DNA from: Escallonia rubra
Lineage: Eukaryota > Streptophyta > Magnoliopsida > Escalloniales > Escalloniaceae
Direction of reading: 5' to 3'
Assembly: GCA_033065855.1 (NCBI GenBank)
Contig: JAVXUO010000067.1
Coordinates: 124,001 to 188,000 of the forward strand
DNA: 64,000 nucleotides
Shown: one piece after another, positions 4,812 through 62,801 of the stretch
Position numbering within the stretch: the first letter of the stretch is position 1
Layout: the number at the start of each line of letters is the position of its first letter
Made by a program: the position numbers and the translations under genes
Notes under the pieces: generated by a model
The model's database searches: none
What the model was told of the DNA's origin: nothing
The model's input: the letters and a program-made list of their open reading frames with translations, nothing else

Positions 4812-6644
4812 TTAACTTTCATGAGGGAAGAGCTGAATCGGAAGACCATCTACTGGAATCGGAGATGGTTCATTGATGATCTTTTCATCTGGATTCAACC
4901 TCTTCCATTTGAACTTTGTGACCAGCCTATGCATGAAGATCAGTACTTCTACACGGGCATACTCTCTGCCGGGGCACATCCTGGGTCCTCCTCCAAATGG
5001 TACAAAACTGAATGGCAGAGGTCCATTTCCTTCAAACCTTGACGGGTCAAACTTCTCCGGATTAGGAAAGTAATTTGGGTCTTTATGTGTTGAATAAACA
5101 CTCCAAAAGGCCTGTTATTGTGATTATGACAAAAAGGATCAATATATACATTCATGGAACTACACGGTAATATGACAACAAGGATCAATATATACTTTCA
5201 TGGAACTACACGGTAAAATGAAGCAAAAATCATTGAAAAAGGTTTCATGTACAAATAGTGAAAACTCACCTTCCATCCCTTTGGTATCTTAAAGCCCGCA
5301 TATGTGAAATCCTTAATAGCTTGTCTGAAAGATCCTAGAGAAGGAGGTTGTAGCCTCAATATCTCATTTAGAACACACCGAGAATACTTCATCTTTTGGA
5401 CGTCTTCCCAATCCAACCGCTCTCTTGGTCCTTTTGAGTTCGAAATCTCTGTTTGTTCTATTTCAAAGGTAAACCAAGTTTAAGGAAAATGAAAACCACT
5501 CGGTTAACATTTTCAGGAAATAGCTCTAGTTATAGGAAATGCATAAACAGAACGGATAGTATATCTGCTTTAAGGAGACGGTGGTGTTCGGTTTAAGATC
5601 ACTATAGGTGCATGTCCAATATTTGATTTGTTTCAGATATAAAGTAAGAAATAAAGCATGAATTTGACCCTGAGATTGGGATTTACCTTTGAAGACTTGA
5701 GCATAGACATCAGGATGATCTGCAAGATAGTATACAACAAAAGCAATAGCAGTGGTCACTGTATCATGGCTCGCAAAAAGTATGCCCAAGATCATGTCAG
5801 CAGCCTCCATCTCTGTCAGGAATTTGCCATCCTCGTCGGCGGAAAACAGTAAGTGGGACAAAAGATCGCGAGTTCGCATTTCTATCTTCTCATTCGGTTG
5901 CCTCCTTCTCTCCTTGAGGATAGGCGACAGCTCGTGCCTGATGTGATCGGCGGCCTTTATTGCACGATTGAAAGTCGTGCCAGGGAAGTTTATTGGCACG
6001 GCTAAGAACCCGGCGGCGACGAGGCCAAAATGGTTTGCGAAACTCGCCACCTGATTGGGATCCTCCACGCTCATAAAAAGCCGGCACGCCATCTCGAACG
6101 TGAACTTCTTCGCTAGGGTGAAAGCCTTAACTTGCTTATTAGATGCACCACTCCAGTCTCTCTTCAAGTGTTGCATGGCAATGCGATCCATTATCGGCAC
6201 GTACTTTTGAAGCGCTTCCGGCTTAAGGAATTCTGGGAGGATCCTTCTCAGCTTTCTCGCCCGTAAGGTAGCGTTGGTTTCGCTGTTTTTTGCAGTGCCG
6301 ATCTTCTCGATGGTGGGTGGCCACCAGGATCTCACAAGCTTGTTCTCGTTGGAGAACAAAAACTTGTTACCCGATGCTCCACAGAACACTGCTACGGTTT
6401 CTCCGGCAATGGAGGTTTTGAATATCTCCGGTGAGAATTTGTCCATCCTCTCTCTAACGAACTTATCAGGAGTGCCATTCCGGCCTGAGGTGATGAATTC
6501 AAGCGATTCTCCGATAATTGGCCAACCAGTATTGCCAGGAGGAGATCTCTGGTCACGAGGGGATTTTTTACGGAAGATGAAGAATAAAGAGAAAGATGCA
6601 TAGAGTAGCCCAAAGAGCAGTAGACATGTGAGAGTGAGATCCAT
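4812..6644 (-). CDS. Cytochrome P450, CYP716 family (triterpenoid oxidase type), three exons
   Basis: Exon 1 is 6644-5687, exon 2 is 5457-5270 and exon 3 is 5111-4812. All introns are GT-AG and the joined length is 1446 bp (481 residues), the usual size for CYP716. The N-terminus has a hydrophobic anchor ([19 protein letters not shown]) followed by the proline hinge [16 protein letters not shown], typical of CYP716. The I-helix motif is A291-S-H-D294-T295, with Ser where most P450s have Gly. The K-helix ExxR is E351-ILR354. The heme loop [13 protein letters not shown] has its thiolate Cys at 428. Family members are ER-bound monooxygenases using NADPH-P450 reductase; CYP716A enzymes often oxidise C-28 of beta-amyrin, alpha-amyrin or lupeol. 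The family call is strong but the substrate is inference. The start is the first Met before the anchor. It looks intact. A broken paralogue lies at 62093-62801. Confidence 0.9.
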
Positions 6645-6689
6645 ATGGTCAAGCGAGCAAAGGATGAAGTTGGGTAGTAGAAGATGTGT

Positions 6690-6702
6690 TTCTTATAGGT
6701 AA
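6690..6702 (-). promoter_or_regulatory. Possible TATA box of the P450 gene
   Basis: Read on the minus strand, CCTATAAGAAACAC lies about 45-55 bases before the P450 ATG. A TATA box here would give a very short 5' leader. Position and sequence fit but nothing else confirms it. Upstream of it the DNA soon becomes the Pack-MULE-like segment. Confidence 0.35.
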
Positions 6703-20632: not shown

Positions 20633-20965
20633 TCATCCATTGATCACTGAACAAGATCGTCTGATCTCGCCTTCATCACTCGTCTTGACTACAACACTAG
20701 CGAGCTTAAAAAATGATTGACTCCAGCTCTCAAAAAAATTCTCTTGGTTATTAGCAAAATTCACCACTTTGTTCATTGTTCTGGCATTATTAAACAGAAC
20801 AGAATCAGATTGGAAGAGACCCTTGTGAGCCAATAGATCACCGTAGTACTGGTTGCCAAAAATCATGGGTGTTTGGGGATTGTTGTTTATTGTTACAGAC
20901 ACGCTTGCTCCTACTGGGCACTTTTTAGTGATCGAGCATGGCTGCATAGTCTTTATCCATAGATG
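20633..20965 (-). pseudogene. Class III peroxidase, C-terminal exon fragment
   Basis: The minus-strand frame ends with NFFESWSQSFFKLASV, then DEGEIRRSCSVING and a stop at 20633. Upstream are TPMIFGNQYYGDLLAHKG and LFQSDSVLF. These are the last-exon blocks of secreted plant class III peroxidases (heme enzymes oxidising phenolics with H2O2; lignin and cell-wall roles), about 105 residues of a ~320-residue protein. A splice-acceptor-like ATGCAG precedes the Pro-Cys that opens the homology. No heme-histidine or distal exons are found above it. Where active enzymes have TPxxFDNxYY, the Asp (a proximal calcium ligand) is Gly here, in keeping with a dead fragment. Confidence 0.8.
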
Positions 20966-21423
20966 CGTCAATGAGTGCGAATTTTCTAGTTGAATTATCG
21001 TGGAATCACTCACTGAATGCACTGCAGTGAGTTGATCCAATAATAATCAAGCATGCAACATCAAGTAATTTCAGTGCCTATAGTTTATGCTATAATAGTT
21101 TAGAACCTAAGTAACTAAAGTTTACATTCCAATAAGTGTAAAGAATAGGTTAGTACGATCAAATTTTGACTGTTACCAACTTGGGAGGATAATAATTATA
21201 ATCCTTTGTATCGTGATAATTAATGGTCGTTAAATGACTTTAGAGGCTTGTATTTAGTGACACTGAAAAAATGTTACTAATAATTGTCACTTAAAGTATT
21301 AGCTGAAATGCAACTATCTATCTTTAGTGACCATTAACTTGTTGCTATGCAAGAAATTATAGCTATCTTCCTACAATCTGGATAGCAGCAAAAAGTTTTC
21401 CCTTCTATGGGTAGGAGCCTCTT
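20966..21423. other. Non-coding interval with CACTA-like subterminal words
   Basis: No gene. 21236-21345 holds TTTAGTGACA-type and GTCACTTAA-type words in both orientations, resembling the subterminal repeats of CACTA elements, but no CACTACAAG terminus is seen. Possibly a remnant. Confidence 0.35.
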
Positions 21424-21854: not shown

Positions 21855-24000
21855 CTAAAAAATTGAGAAAAGGAAAAAAAAAGGAAATTGCCTAATCATT
21901 TGGACGCTTGAACCCTTGCTCCTCCTATCATCAATCAATTTATTTTGCTCGTTGTATTTTGCATCAAGATAATCCTTCCAACATATACATAACTCGATTA
22001 ACTCAGGGTTAAGACGACTCATCCCGTTATCCAACACCCTCCTGCTCGCTGAAAATGTCAACTCTGAAGCAACATGGGAGACTTGCACCGGTAGTACATC
22101 TCGGAGAATTTGGGATACAGTTTTATAATTTTTTTCATTTTGTTTACAAAAAATTAACAAATTAAAATTCATATGATCTTCCATTGGTAAACAAGAATAG
22201 TGATTAGTATTTTCATAAAAACCAATTTCATTAAAAGAGAAAAAAAAGAGAGATGAACTTGCAGAACTAGAAGTACCTTCCACTGGTAGTTGTCTTGCCA
22301 CTAAATGTTCAAGGCCCTTAAAATATGGCCCATAATATATTTCACCAGTCGACAATGTAGCTCACCCGTGCACGTCAGCGGTATTTCGATATAGGTTATA
22401 CAGATCTTCAAATGTCGTAGTCACTTTCTTTGTAAGATCAGTTGTGGCCTCATCCGTGTAGCACATTCGTCTGGATATTTCTACTATCGAGACATTTGCG
22501 CCATCCTACTTTAGCCTAGCATCCAAACAAGTGGCAACAGTAAAAAGAGTAGGAAATTCCGCCCAATATTTGTTAAACTTAATATCCATCTGTTCTAATA
22601 TATGCTGAAAAGGTCCTATATATCTCCATTTCGATAATATTGTAGCAATTATTAGAATTTCTACTAGAGCGATAGGGGAGGTGGGATAGTACGTACCAGA
22701 TAATAAATTGGTAGACGTGTAAAATACCTCCTAAATTTTGGATAGTTGTGCAGCTATCTACTATTCCGCCCGACTTGGCAAGCCATGTGAGAACATGGTT
22801 AGTAGGCAATGCATATACACTTCGTTGTATACCAAGACATGTAAAAGCATATGATATGTGGAGTTCCACCTATGAACAACATCTGTAAGTGGTCTCTTAC
22901 GAGGCAAATTATGTTAAACACACAAACCTTTAAATTATTGTATTCTCGGACCCGAACTATTAATATATACTGCCATACCCCTCATTCTGTAAAGAATATC
23001 TCCTGCAGCAGCTAAACCATTTTGAACAATTAAATTAATTATATGGCAAATACATAGAACAAGAAGTCATTTACCATCAAGTACAGGTCAAAGGCTCTCC
23101 TTTAAGATTGAAACAACAGTTGTATTGTTAGAAGCATTATCAAAATTGATACTCATAATCTTATTCTTTATTTTAAATGTGGTACATGTATTGATTATAC
23201 TAGTAGCAACATTAGCTGCATCATGCAGATAAGGAAAGAGTTCAAAATCGATGATTCTCTTGTTCATAGATCAATCAGGATCAATCCAATGGGCCGTCAC
23301 ACAAGCATTACTAACTAGAGTAAAAGGAGATTTCCAAACATCAGAAGTAAGACTAACTCTACCATCAAAATAATCACAATAATCGATCAAGCGTGCTTTA
23401 CAACATTATACTGTCTAAGTGCATCAGATCTAGTTGTGTTTCTATGAACCTTTTTGTACAAAGGTTGTACGTATGTATTCATATATATATCTAGAGTGCT
23501 TAATATTATTGGCAAAACTAAAAACTTGTTCACTATGAATAAGAAATTCAGCAAGACCGTTTCTTTGGCTTAGCTGATTATAAATAAATAATTTACTGTC
23601 AAAAGATAACTGCATTTGGCTAGGTTCGACATGACCTGCTTAGGTGCACACAGAGGGTAATGCCTATTAAGATGTCCATTATCTTGACTACACGAAAATA
23701 ATTTACCACAGGACTTACATTGAGCTCTTCGAACGCCATCAATCATAATATCCTCAAAATGAAGACCGCTCATCAGGGTAAATTCTGGCTCGGATTAGTT
23801 GCTTCATCAACCGAGCTGCATTTTTTACTAAATTTTTGGGTATCTTATGAACGTGTATATTCAAAATCTGGAATGTTTTGGTTAAACTCTCAATTGGCTT
23901 GGGTATCTATACCCATTAGTGGCGGATCTTGAAAATCAAATGATTGTGGTGGTGCTTGTCGTGGTGCTGCATATTTGCTACGTGATCTAAATAATCGAGA
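21855..24000 (-). pseudogene. hAT transposase relic
   Basis: In order on the minus strand: MSRLFRSRSKY at about 24000; a BED zinc finger with CKSCGKLF and HLNRHYPLC (23648-23719); the central RNase-H-like part, where KIMSINFDNASNN is readable near 23110-23165; and the hATC dimerisation domain (YKTVSQILRDVLPVQVSHVA, then RRVLDNGMSRLNPELIELCI; 21963-22130). The frame is broken repeatedly by stops and shifts between these blocks, so no active enzyme is expected. hAT transposases cut and paste elements with 8-bp target duplications. Confidence 0.8.
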
Positions 24001-32557: not shown

Positions 32558-32618
<61 letters not shown>

Positions 32619-32640
32619 TATATATACATATATATATATA
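32556..32640. repeat. (TA)n microsatellite, left of the MULE
   Basis: About 85 bases of TA repeats with a few C interruptions, abutting the left end of the Mutator-like element. A matching TATATGTATG and (TA)n tract continues to the right of the element at 37364-37404. The element therefore sits inside one TA array. Confidence 0.9.
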
Positions 32641-33290
32641 GGGGGCCGATCCCCATCGACCGGTGGGAAAATAACAATTTTCCCACCGAATCGCAGGTAA
32701 GAGCAGCGATTGGGAAGCTGGCACAAAAAGCAAATAAATCCAATCGCAAGAAAGAGTTGCGATTGGAATCATTGGACAAAAATGCCAATCGCAAGATGCC
32801 AATCGCAACTCTTTCTTGCGATTGGAATGATTGAAAAAACAAAACAATCATTCCAATCGCAACAAAGAGTTGCGATTGGAATCATTGCACAAAAATGCCA
32901 ATCGCAACTCTTTGTTGCGATTGCTTTTGTCCTTTTTTCTCCCCCCACCCCTCCTCCGGTCAACCTTCCTCCCCCCCCCCGTGGCCCCCACTTTCCTTTT
33001 TCTTTCTCTCTTCTTTCCTTTTTTTTTCTTTCTTTCTTCTTTCCTTTTTTCTTTATTGTCTTTTCACCCCATAGCCCATTTTTATGAGCATATTCAAAAA
33101 ATTAGACTCGTTAATCTCAGGGTTTTCCAATGAAATGTATTTCGGCGAAAAACGAGACACGTTATTTTTTGGATTTTCCTATGAATGACCTATTCGGGCA
33201 CACTTTAGGGGCCAATTCATAACGTTCGAAAAATCTTGTAATTTTTTTTGTCACTTTTTTTTCGCTCATTGCACATGAGGCATGCTAGTT
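32641..33290 (+). repeat. Left terminal inverted repeat of the MULE
   Basis: Contains four hairpin modules at about 32748-32930. Each is CCAATCGCAA, seven bases, TTGCGATTGG. Then follow a C/T-rich stretch (32938-33070) and one copy of the 167-base unit. It is the inverse of 36646-37363. Confidence 0.9.
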
Positions 33291-33741
33291 AGCCCATTCT
33301 TATATATTTCGGCGAAAAACGAGACACGTTATTTTTTGGGTTTTCCTATGAAGGCCCTATTCGGGCACACTTTAGGGGCCAATTCATAACGTTCGAAAAA
33401 TCTTGTAATTTTTTGTCACTTTTTTTTCGCTCATTGCACATGAGGCACGCTAGTTAGCCCATTCTTATGTATTTCGGCGAAAAACGAGACACGTTATTTT
33501 TTGAGTTTTCCTATGAAGGGCCTATGAAGGGCACACTTTAGGGGCCAATTCATAACGTTCGAAAAATCTTGTAATTTTTTTTGTCACTTTTTTTTCGCTC
33601 ATTGCACATGAGGCACGCTAGTTAGCCCATTTCTATGAATTTCGGCGAAAAATGAGACGTTATTTTTTGAGTTTTCCTATGAAGGCCCTATTCGGGCACA
33701 CTTTAGGGGCCAATTCATAACGTTCGAAAAATCTTGTAATT
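33141..33741 (+). repeat. 167-base tandem repeat, four copies
   Basis: TTCGGCGAAAAA occurs at 33141, 33308, 33473 and 33641, giving a period of 165-168 bases. Each unit holds GTTATTTTTTG, TTCGGGCACACTTTAGGGGCC and CGCTCATTGCACATGAGGC-like stretches. The first copy overlaps the left TIR. A single inverted copy forms the inner end of the right TIR (36646-36820), and two or more decayed direct copies lie at 35575-35925. Confidence 0.9.
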
Positions 33742-33748
33742 TTGAAAA

Positions 33749-34905
33749 ACTTACATTTCTGGACTAAAAAGTCGTTGGAAAAACTTGGCGCGGGAAAATT
33801 ACCAAAACACCCATCGCGGGGTGGCAAATCACAAAATGCCCCTGGCATCAGGAAAAATCTAAAAAATGCCTAAAAATGCTATTTTAGGCTCCCTGAATTC
33901 ATTCTTGACCTAAGAAGTATTTTACGGATCTTTCGCGCAAAAATCGCGAACCGGTGTCCGGATCGAGCGCTTAAAAGGCCGTTCGACCAAAAAAATAGCT
34001 AACGGCTTCGGAATGGCGCGAATTCCTGGGGAATGGAACTTCCCAACATCCTAGGGTTCTCATAAAAGTTTCGCGTGAAATTGCGCTAGCTTGGTATTTT
34101 AAATTAGACTGCGAATGTACAAGATTCCCCGTATCAGTTAGCCCCTTTACAGTCTTTGGAAAAATCTGAAATTTTTACCTGATACAGATCTTTTGAAAAT
34201 ACCTAGGGTCTCTGTTTTGCACTTTGGAAAAATCACGCTCTAGCTATTTTTTATAAATTCGTGAAAAAACTGTCTAATTAAGTTTTCACCCCTAGCGACA
34301 ATTACGCCCCCGAACCAGCTTCAAAACAACATTTCAGGTGGTTTACTTACATTTCTGGACTAAAAAGTCGTTTGAAAAACTTGGCGCGGGAAAATTACCA
34401 AAACACCCCACGCGGGGTGGCAAATTACCAAAATGCCCTAGCATCAGGAAAAATCTAAAAAGTGCCTGAAAATGCTATTTTACGCTTCCTGAGTTCATCC
34501 TTGATCTAAAAAGTATTTTACGGATCTTTCGCGCAAAAATCGCGAACCGGTGTCCGGATCGAGCGCTTAAAAGGCCGTTCGGCCAAAAAAATAGCTAATG
34601 GCTTCGGAATGACACGAATTCCTGGGAAATGGAACTTCCCAACATCCTAGGGTTCTCATAAAAGTTTCGCGCGAAATCGCGCTAGCTTGGTATTTTAAAT
34701 TAGACTGCGAAGTTACAAGGTTCCCCGTATCTGTTAGCCCCTTTACAGTCTTTGAAAAAATCTGAAATTTTTACCTGATACAGATCTTTTGAAAATACCT
34801 AGGGTCTCTTTTTTGTACTTTGGCAAAATCATGCTCTAGCTATTTTTTATAAATTCGTGAAAAAACTGTCATTTTAACGCCCTAAAAAATCGCTATTGTG
34901 GAATC
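33749..34905. repeat. Two direct copies of a ~580-base LTR-like unit
   Basis: 'acttacatttctggactaaa' begins both copies (about 33750 and 34347). The rest matches closely through CGGTGTCCGGATCGAGCGC and ATCCTAGGGTTCTCATAAAA. Read on the minus strand, the text (GGTAATTTTCCCGCGCC, GGTAATTTGCCACC) resembles the mid part of the gypsy LTRs in this window, so this is probably old LTR DNA, inverted and duplicated inside the MULE. Confidence 0.8.
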
Positions 34906-35218
34906 TTTCGAGTGTAATACCCCGATTTGTAAAAACGTAATTTTGACGCCCTAAACACGAATATTATACTGTGGTAAGAACAATTTAAGCGTAACACAAT
35001 TTAAACAATCAATTGGTAAGAACAAATTGAAAAATACTTACTTGTTTTAACTTGATATATTTATGCAAAAAATCCACCGATCTTCTAGCGTAAATTTTTT
35101 TTGTTTGTATGTAGGTGAGATAGGGAGAATGAGGAGAGTGGAAGAAATGATTCGGGGAGGAGGGATTTTATAGAGATAAAAGTGAGAGAGGAAGAGAAGA
35201 AAGAAGACAAGTCCGTGA

Positions 35219-35464
35219 GTGAAGGGGGAGGGGGGAATGACACGTGGGGGTGGGGGGTATGGTGGTAATGACACGTGGGGGCAGGGGGTATTACGAGCAA
35301 TACGTATGAAGAATCCGATTGAAGAAGCAACGGGTCAAAAAAAATTGCGAAAGTGTGCGTTGTGTAATAAGATGACTGATCATGACAAGAGAAATCATTA
35401 TAAAGTGCTAGGTATCGAACCTGGCGTTATGGTCGAGGAGGACGATGATGAGGAAGAGTGTTAG
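35219..35464 (+). pseudogene. MULE/FAR1-type zinc-knuckle tail (fragment)
   Basis: An 81-codon frame whose middle reads KKLRKCALCNKMTDHDKRNH and which ends in an acidic tail (VEEDDDEEEC, stop). A CX2CX5HX4H/C knuckle near the C-terminus is the usual finish of Mutator-type transposases and FAR1-related proteins (normally ending in C; here the last ligand is His). The 5' part is low-complexity Gly-rich sequence from a GGGGG-rich stretch. Probably the last exon of the element's own transposase, with the catalytic part gone. Small size keeps confidence modest. Confidence 0.45.
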
Positions 35465-36053
35465 GATTAATGTTTCAGTTGTATAAATTAAACTTTTATA
35501 ATGTATATATTTGTGATTTGGTTTGTGAAATCTTTAATTTGTGATTTGGTTTGTGAATTATTGATATTTTTGGAAGGGCCTATTCGGACACACTTTAGCG
35601 CCCAATTCTTAGCTTGCGCAAAAAGTTGTAATTTTTTTTTTCACTTTTTTTCCCTCATAGCACCTCAGGCACGCAAGTTAGCCCAATTCTATGAATTTCG
35701 GCGAAAAACGAGACAAATTATTTTTTGGGTTTTCCTACGACGCCCCTATTCGCGCACACTTTAAGGCCCAATTCTTAGCATTCGAAAAAAGTTGCAATTT
35801 TTTTTGTCACTTTTTTTTCGCTCATTGCACCTCAGGCACGCTAGTTAGCCCACTCTAGGCAATCTATTTTTTTCACATTTTTTTTTGCTCATTACACCTT
35901 AGGCACGCTAGTTAGCCCATTGTCCAAAGTCATTCTAAAGTAATAATAAGGCTAATTCAATTTGAAATCTTAATATCCAAAATCCAACAATACTAATAAT
36001 AATCCATACGAACGTCAACTACATCTCAAGGGAATGGTAAGGAAGGCGTCTAG

Positions 36054-36629
36054 CTACACCCTTTTCAGCTCCCAGGCTATCCGATATCTAAACGTCAATG
36101 CATCCCTTCGAGACCACGACGTATATTCGAGCACATCCGAGCGAGCTATGTAGTCCATGTACTTGATGACGTAAATCCCGCAATCATGACTGTTATATTG
36201 CTTTGGTCGGTTTTGAATCATCACGACCGTCCAAGGCTCTATCATTGTTGAGCTCGTGATGGCTTCCCCCGTAACATGTCGGCACGCTAGTGGAATGATA
36301 GTAGTCTGCATCCAACAGTAAAAAAAGTTATCAAGCCTACTTAACAAGAAGAATAGACTATGAGCGAAGCTCTAGAAATATAAACTAACCACCGCATTGA
36401 TGTACGTGGAGTACATCTCCGCCAGCTGCCCACCAGGTCCATCTTCCATTAGGCTATCGTATATGTGGACCGTTTTGTTCGCTGGATGGAGAACTAATAG
36501 GAAGAAGTGGCACCCGTGAAGACACGGTATCATGATTAGGTTAGCCTCAGATGCGTGACATTGATCGTCCGAGTTCAATAAGGCAAGAGCGTGATTTTGC
36601 CAAAGTGCAAAACAAAGACCCTGTCTCAT
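36054..36629 (-). pseudogene. Ulp1-like (C48) cysteine protease fragment, two exons
   Basis: Exon 1 is 36629-36390 and exon 2 is 36305-36054, with GT-AG borders. Joined, it reads through the C48 fold: His in CHFFLLVLHP, Asp in VHIYDSLMEDG, the oxyanion Gln and the nucleophile Cys in QYNSHDCGIYVIKYMD, then a C-terminal helix DALTFRYRIAWELKRV. All four catalytic residues are present, with Phe replacing the usual Trp after the His. About 163 codons, so the N-terminal part of a full Ulp1 protein is missing; the frame begins close to the inner TIR edge. Family members remove SUMO. In transposons their role is unknown. Cargo of the surrounding MULE. Confidence 0.75.
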
Positions 36630-36645
36630 TTTTTGCCGAAATTCA

Positions 36646-37363
36646 TAGAAATGGGCTAACTAGCGTGCCTCATGTGCAATGAGCGAAAAAAAAGTGACAA
36701 AAAAAATTACAAGATTTTTCGAACGTTATGAATTGGCCCCTAAAGTGTGTCCGAATAGGCCCTTCATAGGAAAACCCAAAAAATAACGTGTCTCGTTTTT
36801 CGCCGAAATACATTTCATTGGAAAATCCTGAGATTAACGAGTCTAATTTTTTGAATATGCTCATAAAAATGGGCTATGGGGTGAAAAGACAATAAAGAAA
36901 AAAGGAAAGAAGAAAGAAAGAAAAAAAAGGGGAAAGAAGAAAGAAAGAAAAAAAAAAGGAAAGAAGAGAGAAAGAAAAAGGAAAGTGGGGGCCACGGGGG
37001 GGGGGGGGGGGGGAAGGAAGGTTGACCGGAGGAGGGGTGGGGGGTGGGGGGAGGAGGGGTGGGGGAGAAAAAAGGACAAAAAAAAGGACAAAAGCAATCG
37101 CAACAAAGAGTTGCGATTGGCATTTTTGTGCAATGATTCCAATCGCAACTCTTTCTTGCGGTTGGAATGATTGTTTTTTTTTTCAATCTTTCCAATCGCA
37201 AGAATGAGTTGCGATTGGCATTTTTGTCCAATGATTCCAATCGCAACTCTTTCTTGCGATTGGATTTATTTGCTTTTTGTGCCAGCTTCCCAATCGCTGC
37301 TCTTACCTGCGATTCGGTGGGAAAATTGTTATTTTCCCCACCGGTCGATGGGGATCGGCCCCC
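36646..37363 (-). repeat. Right terminal inverted repeat of the MULE
   Basis: Inverse of 32641-33290, with an extra GAAAGAAAG-rich stretch and a run of about 18 G at 36996-37013. It carries four AATCGCAA...TTGCGATT hairpin modules. The open frames across it in both strands are mirror artefacts of the repeat. Confidence 0.9.
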
Positions 37364-40063
37364 ATATCTGTATATATGTATGTATGTATATATATATATA
37401 TATAACTTTTTAAATTTCATATTTTACTTATAATCTTTACTTTTTCCAAACGCTGTTTAGGATTTCTTTCTTATCCGGTCTTATCCGACGGTATAGCTTG
37501 TCCGGCCTTGTCCGGCCTTATCCGGCCTTATCATGTCCTTATCCTTGTCGCCAAACGCAGCCTATAAGTTTATGGTCTTCCTTTGGCGAGCTCTCTGGAA
37601 GACTCTACCTCTTATATCTACCCTCTTTTAATTTTCTTCTGGAATTGATAATGTTACAAGGACTTGTGCGGTTTGGTCTTTCCCCCGGTTTATATGCACC
37701 GTTATTGACAATTTTTGTTCGAGAATGGCTCGTAGCCTAGATTTGTAGCTCGACTCCCAGAATAAGACACCACCCAAAGTCGGTCACTACATCTTTTCAA
37801 CCTTGTAGTATAAGTCACATCGAAATGCGATCATATTCTGTGATGCATCCCTTGACATTCACCATAATGTTTAGCCAACCACCCTTTTGGTCAACCCACT
37901 TGAGAAGTTATCTCTTTCAGTTACTCATAGTACTTGAAAATCACTCGCTCGTCCCTTTTTCATGCATTACGGTGCCTGTAAAGTCAAGAGAGCTTTGTAT
38001 ATCTCCCCAATAATTCTTGGGTGTTCTTTTGATCGTGTAACACTTAAAGTTGGCATAAGGTTGGTGGTAACTCTTCCTTCTGCTAGAGTCATTTTGGGGT
38101 TGGCCTAAACTTTCAAGTCCTTAAACCATCCTATTGTTCAGGCTATTTGCTATCCTTTTAGAGTGTTGGAGATCTAATGTTGGAGAATGTAGGAGAAGCA
38201 AATATGCAAGGATAAAAATCAGACCTTTGATCTGACCATCTTATGTGTAATGTTGAGTGAAGTTTTATTATCCTATAAGAAGTCTTATCCATTGTTGTTA
38301 ATACATGTACGGTAATATACCGACCGGTAGGTACAGTTTTGCGCTTCTACTAGTATGGTAAGACTATAAATTTTGTACAAGTATCAATACCGGTCGAAAT
38401 AGATGATCTGCCCGAAACCATCCCCTTTGTACTAGGATTCTGCCTTTCTGGAATTGCATATCTAATGGACAATTGAGTAATTTAACGTAGACGAAGACGG
38501 AAACCTAGTTAACTTCATATGTATACCGGCAGGTACATACCGTGCTTAAATCCCAACCAATAATTTATGAGCTACAGTAGCGGGGATTTGTAGCCGCTAT
38601 CGTATATAATAAATAAAAGCGATTTTTGTGACCGATGCTGTAAAGCGCTGCTACAGAGCATTTTTCCAGTTAGGGTTTTGCTTGCTCCAGTTATGCAGAG
38701 TAGATAAAAAGCCAAAAAGAAAATGAAATCAAGTGTGTTCAAACAGCAAGGACAAGCGAATGGAGAGTAAAAAAAAGCAATGGTGATGTCTGCCAAGTGG
38801 GAAGCCATGGGGTCAGAGAAACACTTCAATGTAATGGTGATATTGGTGATGTTACGATGATTGTTATGACTTGGTTTAACCGACTAATAAAATAAAAAAA
38901 CTATGATGTCTTCGCCCTCATCGTACCAGAATCTCCCTATCTCCTTAGATTTCACCCCTGTGTTAAACCATGCATAATAATCAATGTAGGCCGAAGATTT
39001 TTGCTGACGTCTAAAGCATAGAGGCATGAGTGAATAAATTTAAGTTTTTGCCTTTTATGCCCTAAATTAACGGAGAGGTACATATTAATAAGAATTAATG
39101 GATATATATATATGGCTTGGTGCAGTTAAACCTGTAATTTTTTGTGACTTCAATATTTTTGCACCATAACAAAGCCTATACCCAGTCAAAGTCATAACCA
39201 CGCAAGTGCGTGCGTGTGTGTGCGGGGGGGGGGGGGGGGGGGGCGCTCTCAGTTGCAAGGAAGAGGTTTTGAGATGGGAATGCAGAGCTGTCATATGGAT
39301 CGGCCCAACCCAGCCTTTTAACATTACACTTTAACGATCAGGCTGTGCTTGTGGTTCCAAATGTAGGGCTGGCGCTGGCCGACCCGGTCCATGTTTTTTT
39401 AACTTCTATTCATATATACATAAACCATTTTCCTATTACCTAAATTAATTGTATGATAAAACATTTTTATGTCGTTAGGCCCTTCACTTTATTCGAGCTG
39501 GAATGATAGCTTACAAACAACTATCTAAAGTTGCATGCTTTTTTTCTTTGAAAAATGTAACTCCTTAAAAACAATTTGGAAAAGAAAACATAAAAACTAG
39601 TAGTGTTCACATACAGTTCATCTGTTTTGGGTTTGATTTATAATATATCTAGATTGACAAAATACTATATATTTTTTGAAAAGAAAACTCGTCTAAAGTT
39701 AAGAAAAGAAAGGAGAAAGAAGTCCGGTTAGTTGTGTTGATCTTCTACAGGTTGTCCCGTCGGAGTTTACGTGTTAATTATAGTCAGAAGGTTGGTTTTT
39801 ATAGAAGAAAATTGATCATAATTCCAAGCCAAGAAAGAATCCAAAATTGTGCAGGACTTTTAACAAATTTGGATGGTGTCCCAGGTGGAACTAAGTAAAC
39901 CGGCCAATACACAAATTTTCAAAATCTAGCCTTTAATCAGGGTCCTAATGCCTGCTAGTGGTCCGGCCGGTACACCCATTACTTTATTGAAAAGCGTGGC
40001 TTATTTATTTGACTCACTCTTTTACATGTGCAATTTCAATTAAAATTACAGTGTGTTCTCTTA
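37364..40063. other. Intergenic DNA with MITE remnants
   Basis: No gene. 37440-37570 holds repeated CCGGCCTTATC words ending in CGCCAAACGCAGCC, which looks like one end of a GGCTGCGTTTGG-type MITE whose other end is missing. 38297-38550 has GGTAATATACCGACCGGTAGGTAC facing TATACCGGCAGGTACATACC, a possible 250-base MITE. 39223-39243 is a G-run after GTGTGTGTG. 39270-39400 has GGCCCAACCC and CCGACCCGG words like a hAT edge. 39720-40060 is plain AT-rich sequence. Confidence 0.45.
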
Positions 40064-55025: not shown

Positions 55026-56089
55026 TCGGGCAAGAAAAAGAAAAAGGAGTTTCTTGGCCTGTATTAGATTGTTAAGAACAAAAACTGTGAAAATCTTGTG
55101 CGTGTATTTTTAATGACTTTAGCAACGTAGCAAGAGAGCTAGAACGTCAACATCTTTTGGTCCTGATTTTCTAACATATTTGTTAGAAAATGAGCCTCGT
55201 ACTTACAGTGAAGCAATGTCGAGTCCCGAAGCTCCTCATTAGAAAGAGGCTATTAACAGTGAAATAGAATCCATCATGCAAAATCATACGTGGGAATTGG
55301 TGGATCTTCCACCTGGAAATAAACCATTAGGGTGTAAATGGATTTTCAAGAGAAAGATAAAAGCCGATGGAACGATCGAAAAATATAAGGCCCGATTGGT
55401 TGTCAAGGGATATAGACAAAAGGAAGGCCTTGATTATTTCGATACATATTCACCAGTTACAAGAATAACATCCATTCGAATATTGATAGCTATTGCAGCT
55501 ATTAATAATCTCGAGATACACCAAATGGATGTGAAAATAGCCTTCCTAAATGGAGATCTAAATGAAGAGATCAATATAGAGCAACCCGAGGGGTTTGTAG
55601 CTCCTGATCATAAAAGGAAGGTGTGCAAGCTTGTTAAATCACTTTATGGACTAAAACAGGCTCCGAAACAATGGCATGAAAAGTTTGATAAAGTCATGAT
55701 CGAAAATGGCTTTAGAATCAACGAATGTGATAAATGTGTCTACGTTAAAGGCACATAAAAAGGATATGTCATTATTTGTCTTCATGTGGATGACATGCTC
55801 ATTATTGGGAGCAATAATGAATTCATTAAGGCTACAAAGAAAATGTTGACCAGTAAATCACTACAAGAAAATGGGTTTTTAGTGACGGAATTTGGCTCTG
55901 TCACAAAAATTCTGTCACCCAACTAACCAATGATAAGCTGCAAAAACTAATGTAGGTTTAGCGACCACATAGTCCGTCGCTAGAAGTTTCAGCAACCAAA
56001 TTTCTCATTTTGATTTAAAAAAATTATTTTGAGCTTTAGAGAAAATCCCTAATGTAATAATCTTAGGTTTTCTTTTCCTTTTCATTCCT

Positions 56090-59788: not shown

Positions 59789-59796
59789 TAGTGAAT

Positions 59797-60640
59797 TGAT
59801 ATGAAAGATATGGGTGTAGCTGATGTTATACTTGGTATGAAAATTACCAAAACATCAAATGAACTAGTCTTGTCACAATCTCACTATATTGAGAAAGTGG
59901 CAGACAAATTTAAAAGTTATGATGATAGTCCGGTTAAGACACCACTAGATGTAAATTTACATCTAACAAAGAATATTGGTGAAGCAATATCTCAATTAGA
60001 GTATTCGCGCATAATTGGTAGCCTAATGTATATCATGAATTGCACGAGACCCGATATAGCATATGCTGTCAGTAAACCAAGCAGATATACTAGCAATCCG
60101 GGGAAGAATCACTGGATAGCTATTGTAAGAGTTTTAAGGTACTTAAAATATACCTTAAACTTTTGGTCTGCATTATTCAAGATATCCAGATGTATTAGAA
60201 GGATACAGTGATGCCAACTGGATATCAGATTCTAATGAAACAAATTCCACAAGTGGATATATGTTTACATTAGGAGGAGCAGTTATATCTTGGAAATCCT
60301 CTAAATAGACATGTATTGCCAAATCCACTATGGAATCTGAATTCATTGCTTTAGATAAAGCAGGAGAAGAAGCGGAGTGGCTTCGTAATTTCTTGGAGGA
60401 TATTCCAAATTGGCCTAAACATGTGCCACCAATTTGCATACACTGTGATAGTCAATCTACAATTGGAAGAGCACAAAGTAGTATGTATAACGGCAAGTCT
60501 AGACACATACGTCGCAGACACAATACCGTTAAAGAATTACTTTCTAGTGGAATTATCTCTATTGACTACGTGTAGTCAAATGATAATATTGCGGATCCGT
60601 TGACGAAAGCTTTGACTAGAGAGAAAGTAAATACGTCATC
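59797..60640 (+). mobile_element. copia RT end and RNase H relic
   Basis: [13 protein letters not shown] and [13 protein letters not shown] are the usual last blocks of copia RT. They are followed by [28 protein letters not shown] and ESEFIALDKAGEEAEWLRNF (RNase H) and DPLTKALTREK (the C-terminal tail). Part of the copia fossil and broken in several places. Confidence 0.9.
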
Positions 60641-62092: not shown

Positions 62093-62801
62093 GCTCGTAC
62101 CTGATGTGCTCGGCTGCCTTTATTGCATGATTGAAATTCGTATCAGGGAAGTTTATCGGCATGGCAAATAGCCCGGCGGCGACGAGGCCGCCAAAATGGT
62201 TTGCGAAACTCGCCACCTGATTGGGATCCTCCACGCTCATAAAAAGCCGGCATGTCATCTCGAACGTGAACTTCTTTCACAAGGGTGAAAGCCTTACTTG
62301 CTTATTAGATGCACCACTCCAGTCTCTCTGCAAGTGTTGCATGGCCTGCGATCCATGATTGGCACGTACTTTTGAAGCGCTTCCGGCTTGCGGAATTCTT
62401 TCTGGGAGGATCCTTCTCAGCTTTCTCGTCCGTAAGGTAGCGTTGGTATCGCTGTTTATTGCAGTGGTTATCTTCTTGATGGTGGGTGGCTACCAGGAGG
62501 CCACAAGCTTGTTCTTGTTGGAGAACAAAAACTTGTTACCCGATGCTCCATTGCCGGATCCGGCAATGGAGGTTTTGAATACCTCCGGTGAGAATTTGTT
62601 CATCCTCTCTCTAACGAACTCATCGGGAGTGCCATTCCGGCCTCAGGTGACGAATTCAAGCGACTCTCCGATAAATGGCCAACCTGTATTGCCAGGAGGA
62701 GATCTCCGGTCACGAGGGGACTTTTTACGGAAGATGAAGACTGAAGAGAAAGATGCATAGAGTAGCCCAAAGAGCAGTAGACATGAGAGAGTGAGATCCA
62801 T
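62093..62801 (-). pseudogene. CYP716-type P450 pseudogene, 5' part of exon 1
   Basis: Starts with the same N-terminus as the intact gene ([20 protein letters not shown], then [17 protein letters not shown]) and follows its exon 1 to about residue 238 (AEHIRYE), where the copia 3' LTR cuts in. It is dead by itself: a TGA follows SLEFVT at codon 53, bases are missing near 62550 relative to 6385, and small insertions near 62380 and 62270 shift the frame. Exons 2 and 3, with the heme loop, are absent from the window on this side. High similarity to 5931-6644 shows a fairly recent paralogue. Confidence 0.92.

Follow-up and report, generated by a model that had tools for sequence, protein, structure and literature searches.

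Several groups of Mutator-like elements (MULEs) enter microsatellites in plants. MuTAnT and AutoMuTAnT of Medicago truncatula are MULEs with GGGG/CCCC ends, foldback-like modular terminal inverted repeats (TIRs) and, as reported, a Jittery-like transposase; all but 14 of 218 MuTAnT copies lie in perfect TA microsatellites, with 9-nt duplications given for the others (PMC4486113). SaTar elements of guayule and rice, among them the 5.3-kb defective autonomous AgS-MULE1, also target microsatellites and are stacked end to end without mutual interruption (PMC5907723), while the rice Micron and maize TAFT elements are cited in both reports for TA-microsatellite insertion. How MULEs enter such arrays is disputed in print, i.e., whether a target duplication is hidden by the repeat or recombination proceeds without one. 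Here, we describe a 4,723-bp MULE with GGGGG...CCCCC ends, located inside a TA array at positions 32641-37363 of a 64,000-nucleotide stretch of Escallonia rubra DNA (assembly GCA_033065855.1, contig JAVXUO010000067.1, positions 124,001-188,000, forward strand; the whole stretch is hereafter termed the window). We consider it probable that its family transposes by 9-bp cut-and-paste, with a preference for TA arrays hiding the duplication, and that the window copy is a non-autonomous derivative. The phase of the TA array at the two junctions of a copy constitutes a simple sequence test of the published dispute, needing no empty allele and usable on any genome; in the Escallonia family, it favours ordinary 9-bp cut-and-paste for the shorter copies and leaves the long ones open.

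The family is like MuTAnT in its GGGG-type ends, its insertion into TA microsatellites (117 of 137 ends) and its 9-bp duplications. AutoMuTAnT, however, is 4,873 bp long with a single transposase open reading frame (ORF; PMC4486113), whereas long Escallonia copies span 11.4-13.9 kb and carry two genes. Beyond GGGG, the Escallonia ends (GGGGGCCGATCCCC) also depart from the MuTAnT terminal mask GGGGTTTGCTAGAACA (PMC4486113); because of this difference in terminal sequence, membership in MuTAnT was rejected and the window element is not filed there. Neither a gene for Ulp1 or a plant mobile domain (PMD) nor a junction-phase analysis is described for AutoMuTAnT in the available part of its report (PMC4486113), whereas the Escallonia family has a PMD-Ulp1 gene. 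As among SaTar elements, different elements are joined across shared microsatellites: in 23 of 137 flanks, the TA tract is bounded on its other side by a further GGGG-type end motif. Guayule SaTar elements, in contrast, show 10-bp duplications and their authors argue for a recombination/circle route (PMC5907723). The terms Ulp1 and FAR1, both applicable here, have no occurrence in the SaTar text (PMC5907723), and Micron elements are of ~380 bp (PMC5907723), as opposed to the multi-kb Escallonia family. The first-pass annotation of this locus, made from the window alone, regarded TA targeting as rarely noted for multi-kb MULEs; AutoMuTAnT at 4,873 bp (PMC4486113) and AgS-MULE1 at 5.3 kb (PMC5907723) are precedents already in print.

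The protease is likewise no novelty in itself, as Ulp1 in Jittery-like MULEs has been published (PMC2528002): Ulp1/C48 sequences stand downstream of the transposase, often reversed, in Jittery-like elements and KI-MULEs of grapevine, melon, rice, and Arabidopsis (PMC2528002, PMC13317346). A Ulp1 domain is thus common to Kaonashi/VANDAL-KIU elements and the Escallonia family; Kaonashi/VANDAL elements are non-TIR (PMC2528002, PMC13317346), whereas the Escallonia family has TIRs. For the Ulp1-carrying Jittery-like elements and KI-MULEs, the available parts of these reports do not mention TA targeting, and "mobile domain" has no occurrence in PMC2528002, as against the PMD-Ulp1 gene described below. 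PMD has been found inside MULEs of grasses and Amborella, with an anti-silencing use speculated upon; there, PMD-C is fused to the transposase (PMC5418596), whereas the Escallonia family has a second gene, convergent with that of the transposase, in which PMD and Ulp1 are combined. Fusions of a protease domain to host PMD proteins are also mentioned (PMC7156037), so the pairing as such is not new, and a precedent for anti-silencing via tandem repeats is provided by VANC-type factors (PMC5735166, PMC10398659). TA targeting and Ulp1-carrying MULEs are therefore both already known; neither a TA-targeting MULE with a PMD-Ulp1 gene nor a junction-phase test was found in the literature searched, the coverage of which mostly excludes subscription journals.

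TA arrays as the family's target

Across the 566-Mb assembly (3,222 contigs), the terminal 26-mer of the window element has 399 matches at up to three mismatches (201/198 by strand; none for a reversed-pattern control), and a sister end type (GGGTTCGATACACACCC...) has 260 at up to two mismatches; searches with variant end patterns gained few new pairs. The ends readable in the stretches fetched numbered 137, mainly exact 26-mer matches together with two variant types and neighbouring ends, i.e., not a random sample. At 117 of these, at least 10 bp of perfect TA adjoins the element. By comparison, perfect TA runs of at least 10 bp account for 52 of 59,120 bases (0.09%) in the rest of the window, and at 30 loci the outer flanks, taken beyond 200 bp from the junction, have 600 of 39,000 bases (1.5%) in such runs. 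It follows that TA arrays are chosen or strongly tolerated. The observation of the first-pass annotation that the window element sits within such an array, with TA-rich tracts directly outside both ends, is confirmed, with corrections to some of its parts, and tabulation of the flanks of other copies extends it to the family as its usual target. By eye, the 20 ends failing the 10-bp criterion comprise 15 interrupted TA tracts, four that are clearly non-TA (C289, both ends of C1004, and C1135), and one that is doubtful (C1214). Copies in other targets, put forward initially as a refutation of targeting, do therefore exist; the two that were fully read both carry 9-bp duplications.

If the TA tracts were portions of the element ends, or arose on insertion through slippage expansion from a short AT target, this would account for TA runs being longer at ends than elsewhere, and expansion after insertion into short TA sites has been reported for maize TAFT-type elements (PMC5907723). 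We give this very little credence, as C1004 and C289 have a TA array at neither end. Moreover, the right flank of the window element (37384-37505) belongs to a high-copy repeat with at least 38 other places listed, most at 89-92%, and two element-free copies of this host repeat (L178 and L179) hold a TA-rich tract at the same position with no family end within 3.1 kb. Since two insertions lack TA and two element-free host repeats have it, the TA runs do not belong to the element ends, a possibility raised at the outset and here rejected; as a full explanation, end-derived or generated TA is already contradicted, though some later expansion is possible. A joined-flank search, in which the best 40 of 274 candidates were considered, revealed no place holding both window flanks among the 47 matches listed. 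Insertion leaves the array in place and still usable, such that further elements can land beside the first.

Target duplications and junction phase

Where no array can hide it, the duplication is visible. The C1004 copy, outside TA, is bounded on both sides by a perfect 9-bp duplication, TTTTAAAAT. For C289, the right end led to the prediction of a 9-bp duplication (ATTTTAGAA), which both flanks then confirmed: joined to the element end, ATTTTAGAA occurs without mismatch once in the genome, at ~5.7 kb from the C289 end and in the same contig, with the only other match to the prediction being the C1004 end, at one mismatch. Both copies thus display the target duplication of about 9 bp expected of a MULE.

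Within an array, the same event should leave a trace in phase. An odd-length duplication in a TA array makes the last base left of the element identical to the first base on its right; as slippage by TA units leaves junction phase unchanged, a 9-bp duplication predicts equal phase at both junctions (an "odd" pair). Among pairs with matching ends and equal G-runs, 31 of 46 were odd (p = 0.026), including 23 of the 32 with the element's own end types; below 8 kb, the odd pairs were 20 of 24 filtered and 22 of 27 unfiltered. The analysis was repeated on family E (pattern GGGAGCTGATCCGTTGANAGCGC), a second TA-bordering family with 666 exact ends in the genome, for which the prediction was written beforehand; from the first ~100 ends listed, 14 pairs spanning 0.2-2.2 kb were picked and 13 read (C520 was left out), of which 11 were odd (p = 0.022). 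Of the two even pairs, C39 is one substitution short of a 9-bp match, and in C326, where the array is imperfect, a TATATACAT duplication is visible on both sides. Over 18 informative junctions, identity peaked at k = 9 (0.642), with six perfect matches as opposed to at most three at any other k from 4 to 13. As separate observations on family E, its GGGAGCTGATCC end resembles that of a distant relative, and its ends and those of the first family often face each other over one TA tract.

In the preferred mechanism, a transposase supplied in trans would pair the two GGGGG ends, the hairpin units described below being putative binding sites, and would insert the element after cutting the target with a stagger, which leaves 9 bp of it duplicated. 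A strong preference for TA arrays, presumably residing in the transposase itself, would normally hide this duplication in the repeat; the array would be split yet kept on both sides, allowing more elements to land beside the first. Mobilization of the window copy would likewise have occurred in trans.

Several results weigh against this reading. The window copy's own duplication amounts to only 7/9 positions, and the non-TA end C1135 as well as the doubtful C1214 are known from one end each. The unfiltered phase excess is weak (35 of 57 pairs odd, p = 0.11), with the 11 pairs removed by the filter for unequal G-runs or more than two end mismatches being four odd and seven even; taken alone, the sister end type gives 8 of 14 odd. 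Pairs of 8 kb or more show no bias (odd in 11 of 22 filtered and 13 of 30 unfiltered), and the 8-kb split itself, for which Fisher p = 0.027, was chosen after the data had been seen. In addition, the "odd" family E pair C354 has just 2/9 identity, and four of the 18 informative junctions were entered by hand.

Random phase in the long pairs is what would be anticipated were an excised circle whose ends are separated by TA filler to recombine with a genomic microsatellite without target duplication, as proposed for SaTar elements (PMC5907723). The stacked layout that motivated this model is also encountered in the 23 flanks with a GGGG-type motif across the same TA tract. SaTar junctions were described as inconsistent with duplication, whereas those analysed here combine an odd excess in short pairs and family E with random phase in long pairs. 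We regard the circle route as improbable for Escallonia, given the odd-phase excess among shorter pairs and family E together with the 9-bp duplications seen at C1004, C289 and C326, sites without a perfect array that could mask them. Our suspicion is that the assembly contains chimeras of long near-identical copies, or that such copies recombine, which could explain the random phase at 8 kb and above. Separately, random phase confined to long copies may serve to flag assembly chimeras in long near-identical transposons.

Coding content of the family and of the window copy

Ten long relatives (11.4-13.9 kb) were taken from the genome for comparison. Among the matches listed, their layout consists of inverted ends with ~596-bp repeats, a transposase gene, 167-bp repeats, and an opposite-strand PMD-Ulp1 gene; the two genes converge, with their 3' ends on either side of the 167-bp repeats. 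The 777-aa transposase ORF of a full-length relative matches PF10551 (E 7.1e-33), FAR1 (E 1.9e-14) and SWIM (E 3.3e-7), a domain order that we take to be like that of Jittery. Of the ten relatives, five encode a full-length transposase without interruption; in two others the gene has stops, in one the frame is broken, and the remaining two are partial. Genome-wide, 49 of the best 58 copies (from 4,700 first-look candidates) lack internal stops. The domains of the second gene were identified by Pfam profiles, with PMD matches on two exons of C1041 (E 5.8e-25 and 1.1e-19) and C48 matches in C1041 (E 3.1e-9) and C2190 (E 1.1e-18); both sets of exons run antisense to the transposase. In one copy (C1041), read by eye, GT-AG borders connect the C48 exons in frame with the second of the PMD exons. 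When spliced, the C48 domain of this relative, as distinct from that of the window copy, matches SENP2 (E 5.4e-9) with the H, D, Q and C residues aligned, while one PMD exon gave no match at E <= 10 to solved structures.

Pooled over all copies, the ratio of nonsynonymous to synonymous polymorphism (pN/pS) is 0.50 for the transposase, 0.64-0.65 for Ulp1 and 0.39-0.67 for the PMD, which is constraint on average and no evidence that the window copy works; these values, descriptive and without a significance test, address the first-pass suggestion to look for purifying selection on the Ulp1 exons. Pairwise dN/dS of the window copy versus relatives is 0.24-0.49 for the Ulp1 exons, where the value for the H/D exon takes in about 20 non-homologous residues at the exon start, and 0.38-0.81 for the transposase remnant over 51 codons or fewer. 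These limits count against the reading of coding constraint, and no uninterrupted PMD-Ulp1 frame was recovered from any single copy taken from the genome.

By its sequence, the window copy is best described as a rearranged, internally deleted derivative of this MULE family. Its frame at 36057-36371 matches Peptidase_C48 (E 4.2e-9, 37 bits; Pfam cut-off 20.7), whereas the match of the frame at 36375-36659 falls below the cut-off (E 0.12, 12.6 bits). All four catalytic residues noted in the first pass are indeed present, with H and D kept versus the nine relatives aligned and Q and C versus ten, but the domain is cut on its 5' side and what remains is the 3' end of a gene: similarity to the relatives ends at ~36578 and a 167-bp repeat, of the kind by which both arms are extended, follows from 36611, so the N-terminal part of C48 and the whole PMD are missing. 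Retention runs from about residue 298 of the relatives' exon to the 3' end, i.e., two 3' exons only. Correspondingly, the knuckle frame at 35219-35464, without a Pfam match of its own, aligns at 82% with residues 718-768 of the 777-aa transposase and is the end of a FAR1-type transposase; roughly the last 55-60 codons are retained and the catalytic part is absent. As it lacks the core of the transposase and the greater part of the PMD-Ulp1 gene, the window copy is judged non-autonomous, and its candidacy as an autonomous element was rejected. The initial interpretation is partly supported: the reading as a Ulp1-carrying MULE in a TA array is right, but the copy is a deletion derivative, and its protease is the tail of a PMD-Ulp1 gene that is visible only from the long relatives.

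Short frames, and a C48 match that in one of two cases stays under the Pfam cut-off, might be expected if the Ulp1 and knuckle frames of the window copy were chance or unrelated captured fragments as opposed to remnants of the family's own genes. This is scarcely credible and, judging from collinearity with the long relatives, already contradicted: the transposase end and the last Ulp1 exon occur in 10 of 10 long relatives, on opposite strands with 3' ends facing, as in the window, and the C48 residues are conserved across copies.

The joining of PMD and Ulp1 in one gene, beside a transposase ORF still open in many copies, makes a putative anti-silencing role testable. By analogy with VANC on VANDAL elements, PMD-Ulp1 might represent a new type of anti-silencing factor, in which a chromatin module tied to a deSUMOylating enzyme would be directed to the family's repeats; this is a speculative proposal to which we attach a rather low probability. 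The repeats so targeted would be the fast-changing 25-bp end hairpins and the 167-bp and ~596-bp arrays, an assignment that is equally doubtful. Any role for PMD-Ulp1, including the countering of silencing, is thus put forward conditionally; if true, such a factor combined with reusable TA landing arrays would explain the abundance and recent activity of the family.

Layout of the element and other features of the window

The window element is opened by GGGGGCCGATCCCC at 32641 and closed by its reverse complement at 37363. Starting 24 bp inward of each end, 130 bp (32665-32794 and 37209-37338) are 100% complementary, and the arms of 700 and 758 bp are identical at 662 of 685 aligned bases, with 88 gap columns. 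These long TIRs, as expected of a MULE, agree with the 0.65-0.7 kb noted at first. Seven 25-bp hairpin units, CAATCGCAA-N7-TTGCGATTG, are distributed over the arms (four left, three right); in a count over the window, the 9-mer CAATCGCAA had no occurrence between the outer 700 bp of the element or in the 59 kb outside. The relatives C2190 and C469 (L041-L042 and L047-L048) have near-identical terminal 26 bp, yet their ends are devoid of the CAATCGCAA 9-mer; the repeats further in seem to differ in sequence, and this part of the ends may turn over fast.

Table 1. Coordinates of the element, its flanking tracts and its internal features within the window.
Feature	Position	Strand	Basis or detail
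Left TA-rich target tract	32558-32640		Sequence and flank comparison
Left outer TIR, GGGGG start	32641-33063	+	Hairpin units at 32741, 32800, 32854, 32899
167-bp tandem repeats, four copies, adjoining TIR	33076-33743	+	Self-comparison and relatives
~596-bp tandem repeat unit, nearly two copies	33749-34870		Contained in multi-kb inverted ends of relatives
FAR1/MULE transposase C-terminal end, C-x2-C...H...H knuckle	35282-35464	+	82% over residues 718-768
167-bp repeats separating the two convergent gene remnants	35573-35923	+	Self-comparison and relatives
Last Ulp1 (C48) exon with Q and C (PKQYNSHDCG)	36057-36311	-	Profile match and alignment with relatives
Truncated Ulp1 exon with H and D (CHFFLLV, IYDSL)	36378-36578	-	Alignment with relatives
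Inverted 167-bp repeat lengthening right arm, replacing expected 5' part of Ulp1 exon	36611-36821	-	Repeats and relatives
Right outer TIR, CCCCC end	36985-37363	-	Hairpin units at 37095, 37193, 37238
Right TA-rich target tract, running on into high-copy host repeat	37364-37405		Flank comparison

Elsewhere in the window, a Cytochrome P450 exon (PF00067, E 3.7e-23) lies at 5529-6692 on the minus strand, and the plus-strand frame at 62359-62760 resembles by eye the antisense of its 5' part, making a second copy likely. A piece of a hAT dimerisation domain (21858-22361) and, nearby, a peroxidase exon (20636-21046) occupy the minus strand, while plus-strand pieces of Copia-type reverse transcriptase (RVT_2) are located at 55243-55755 and 59795-60208, the second matching below the family cut-off.

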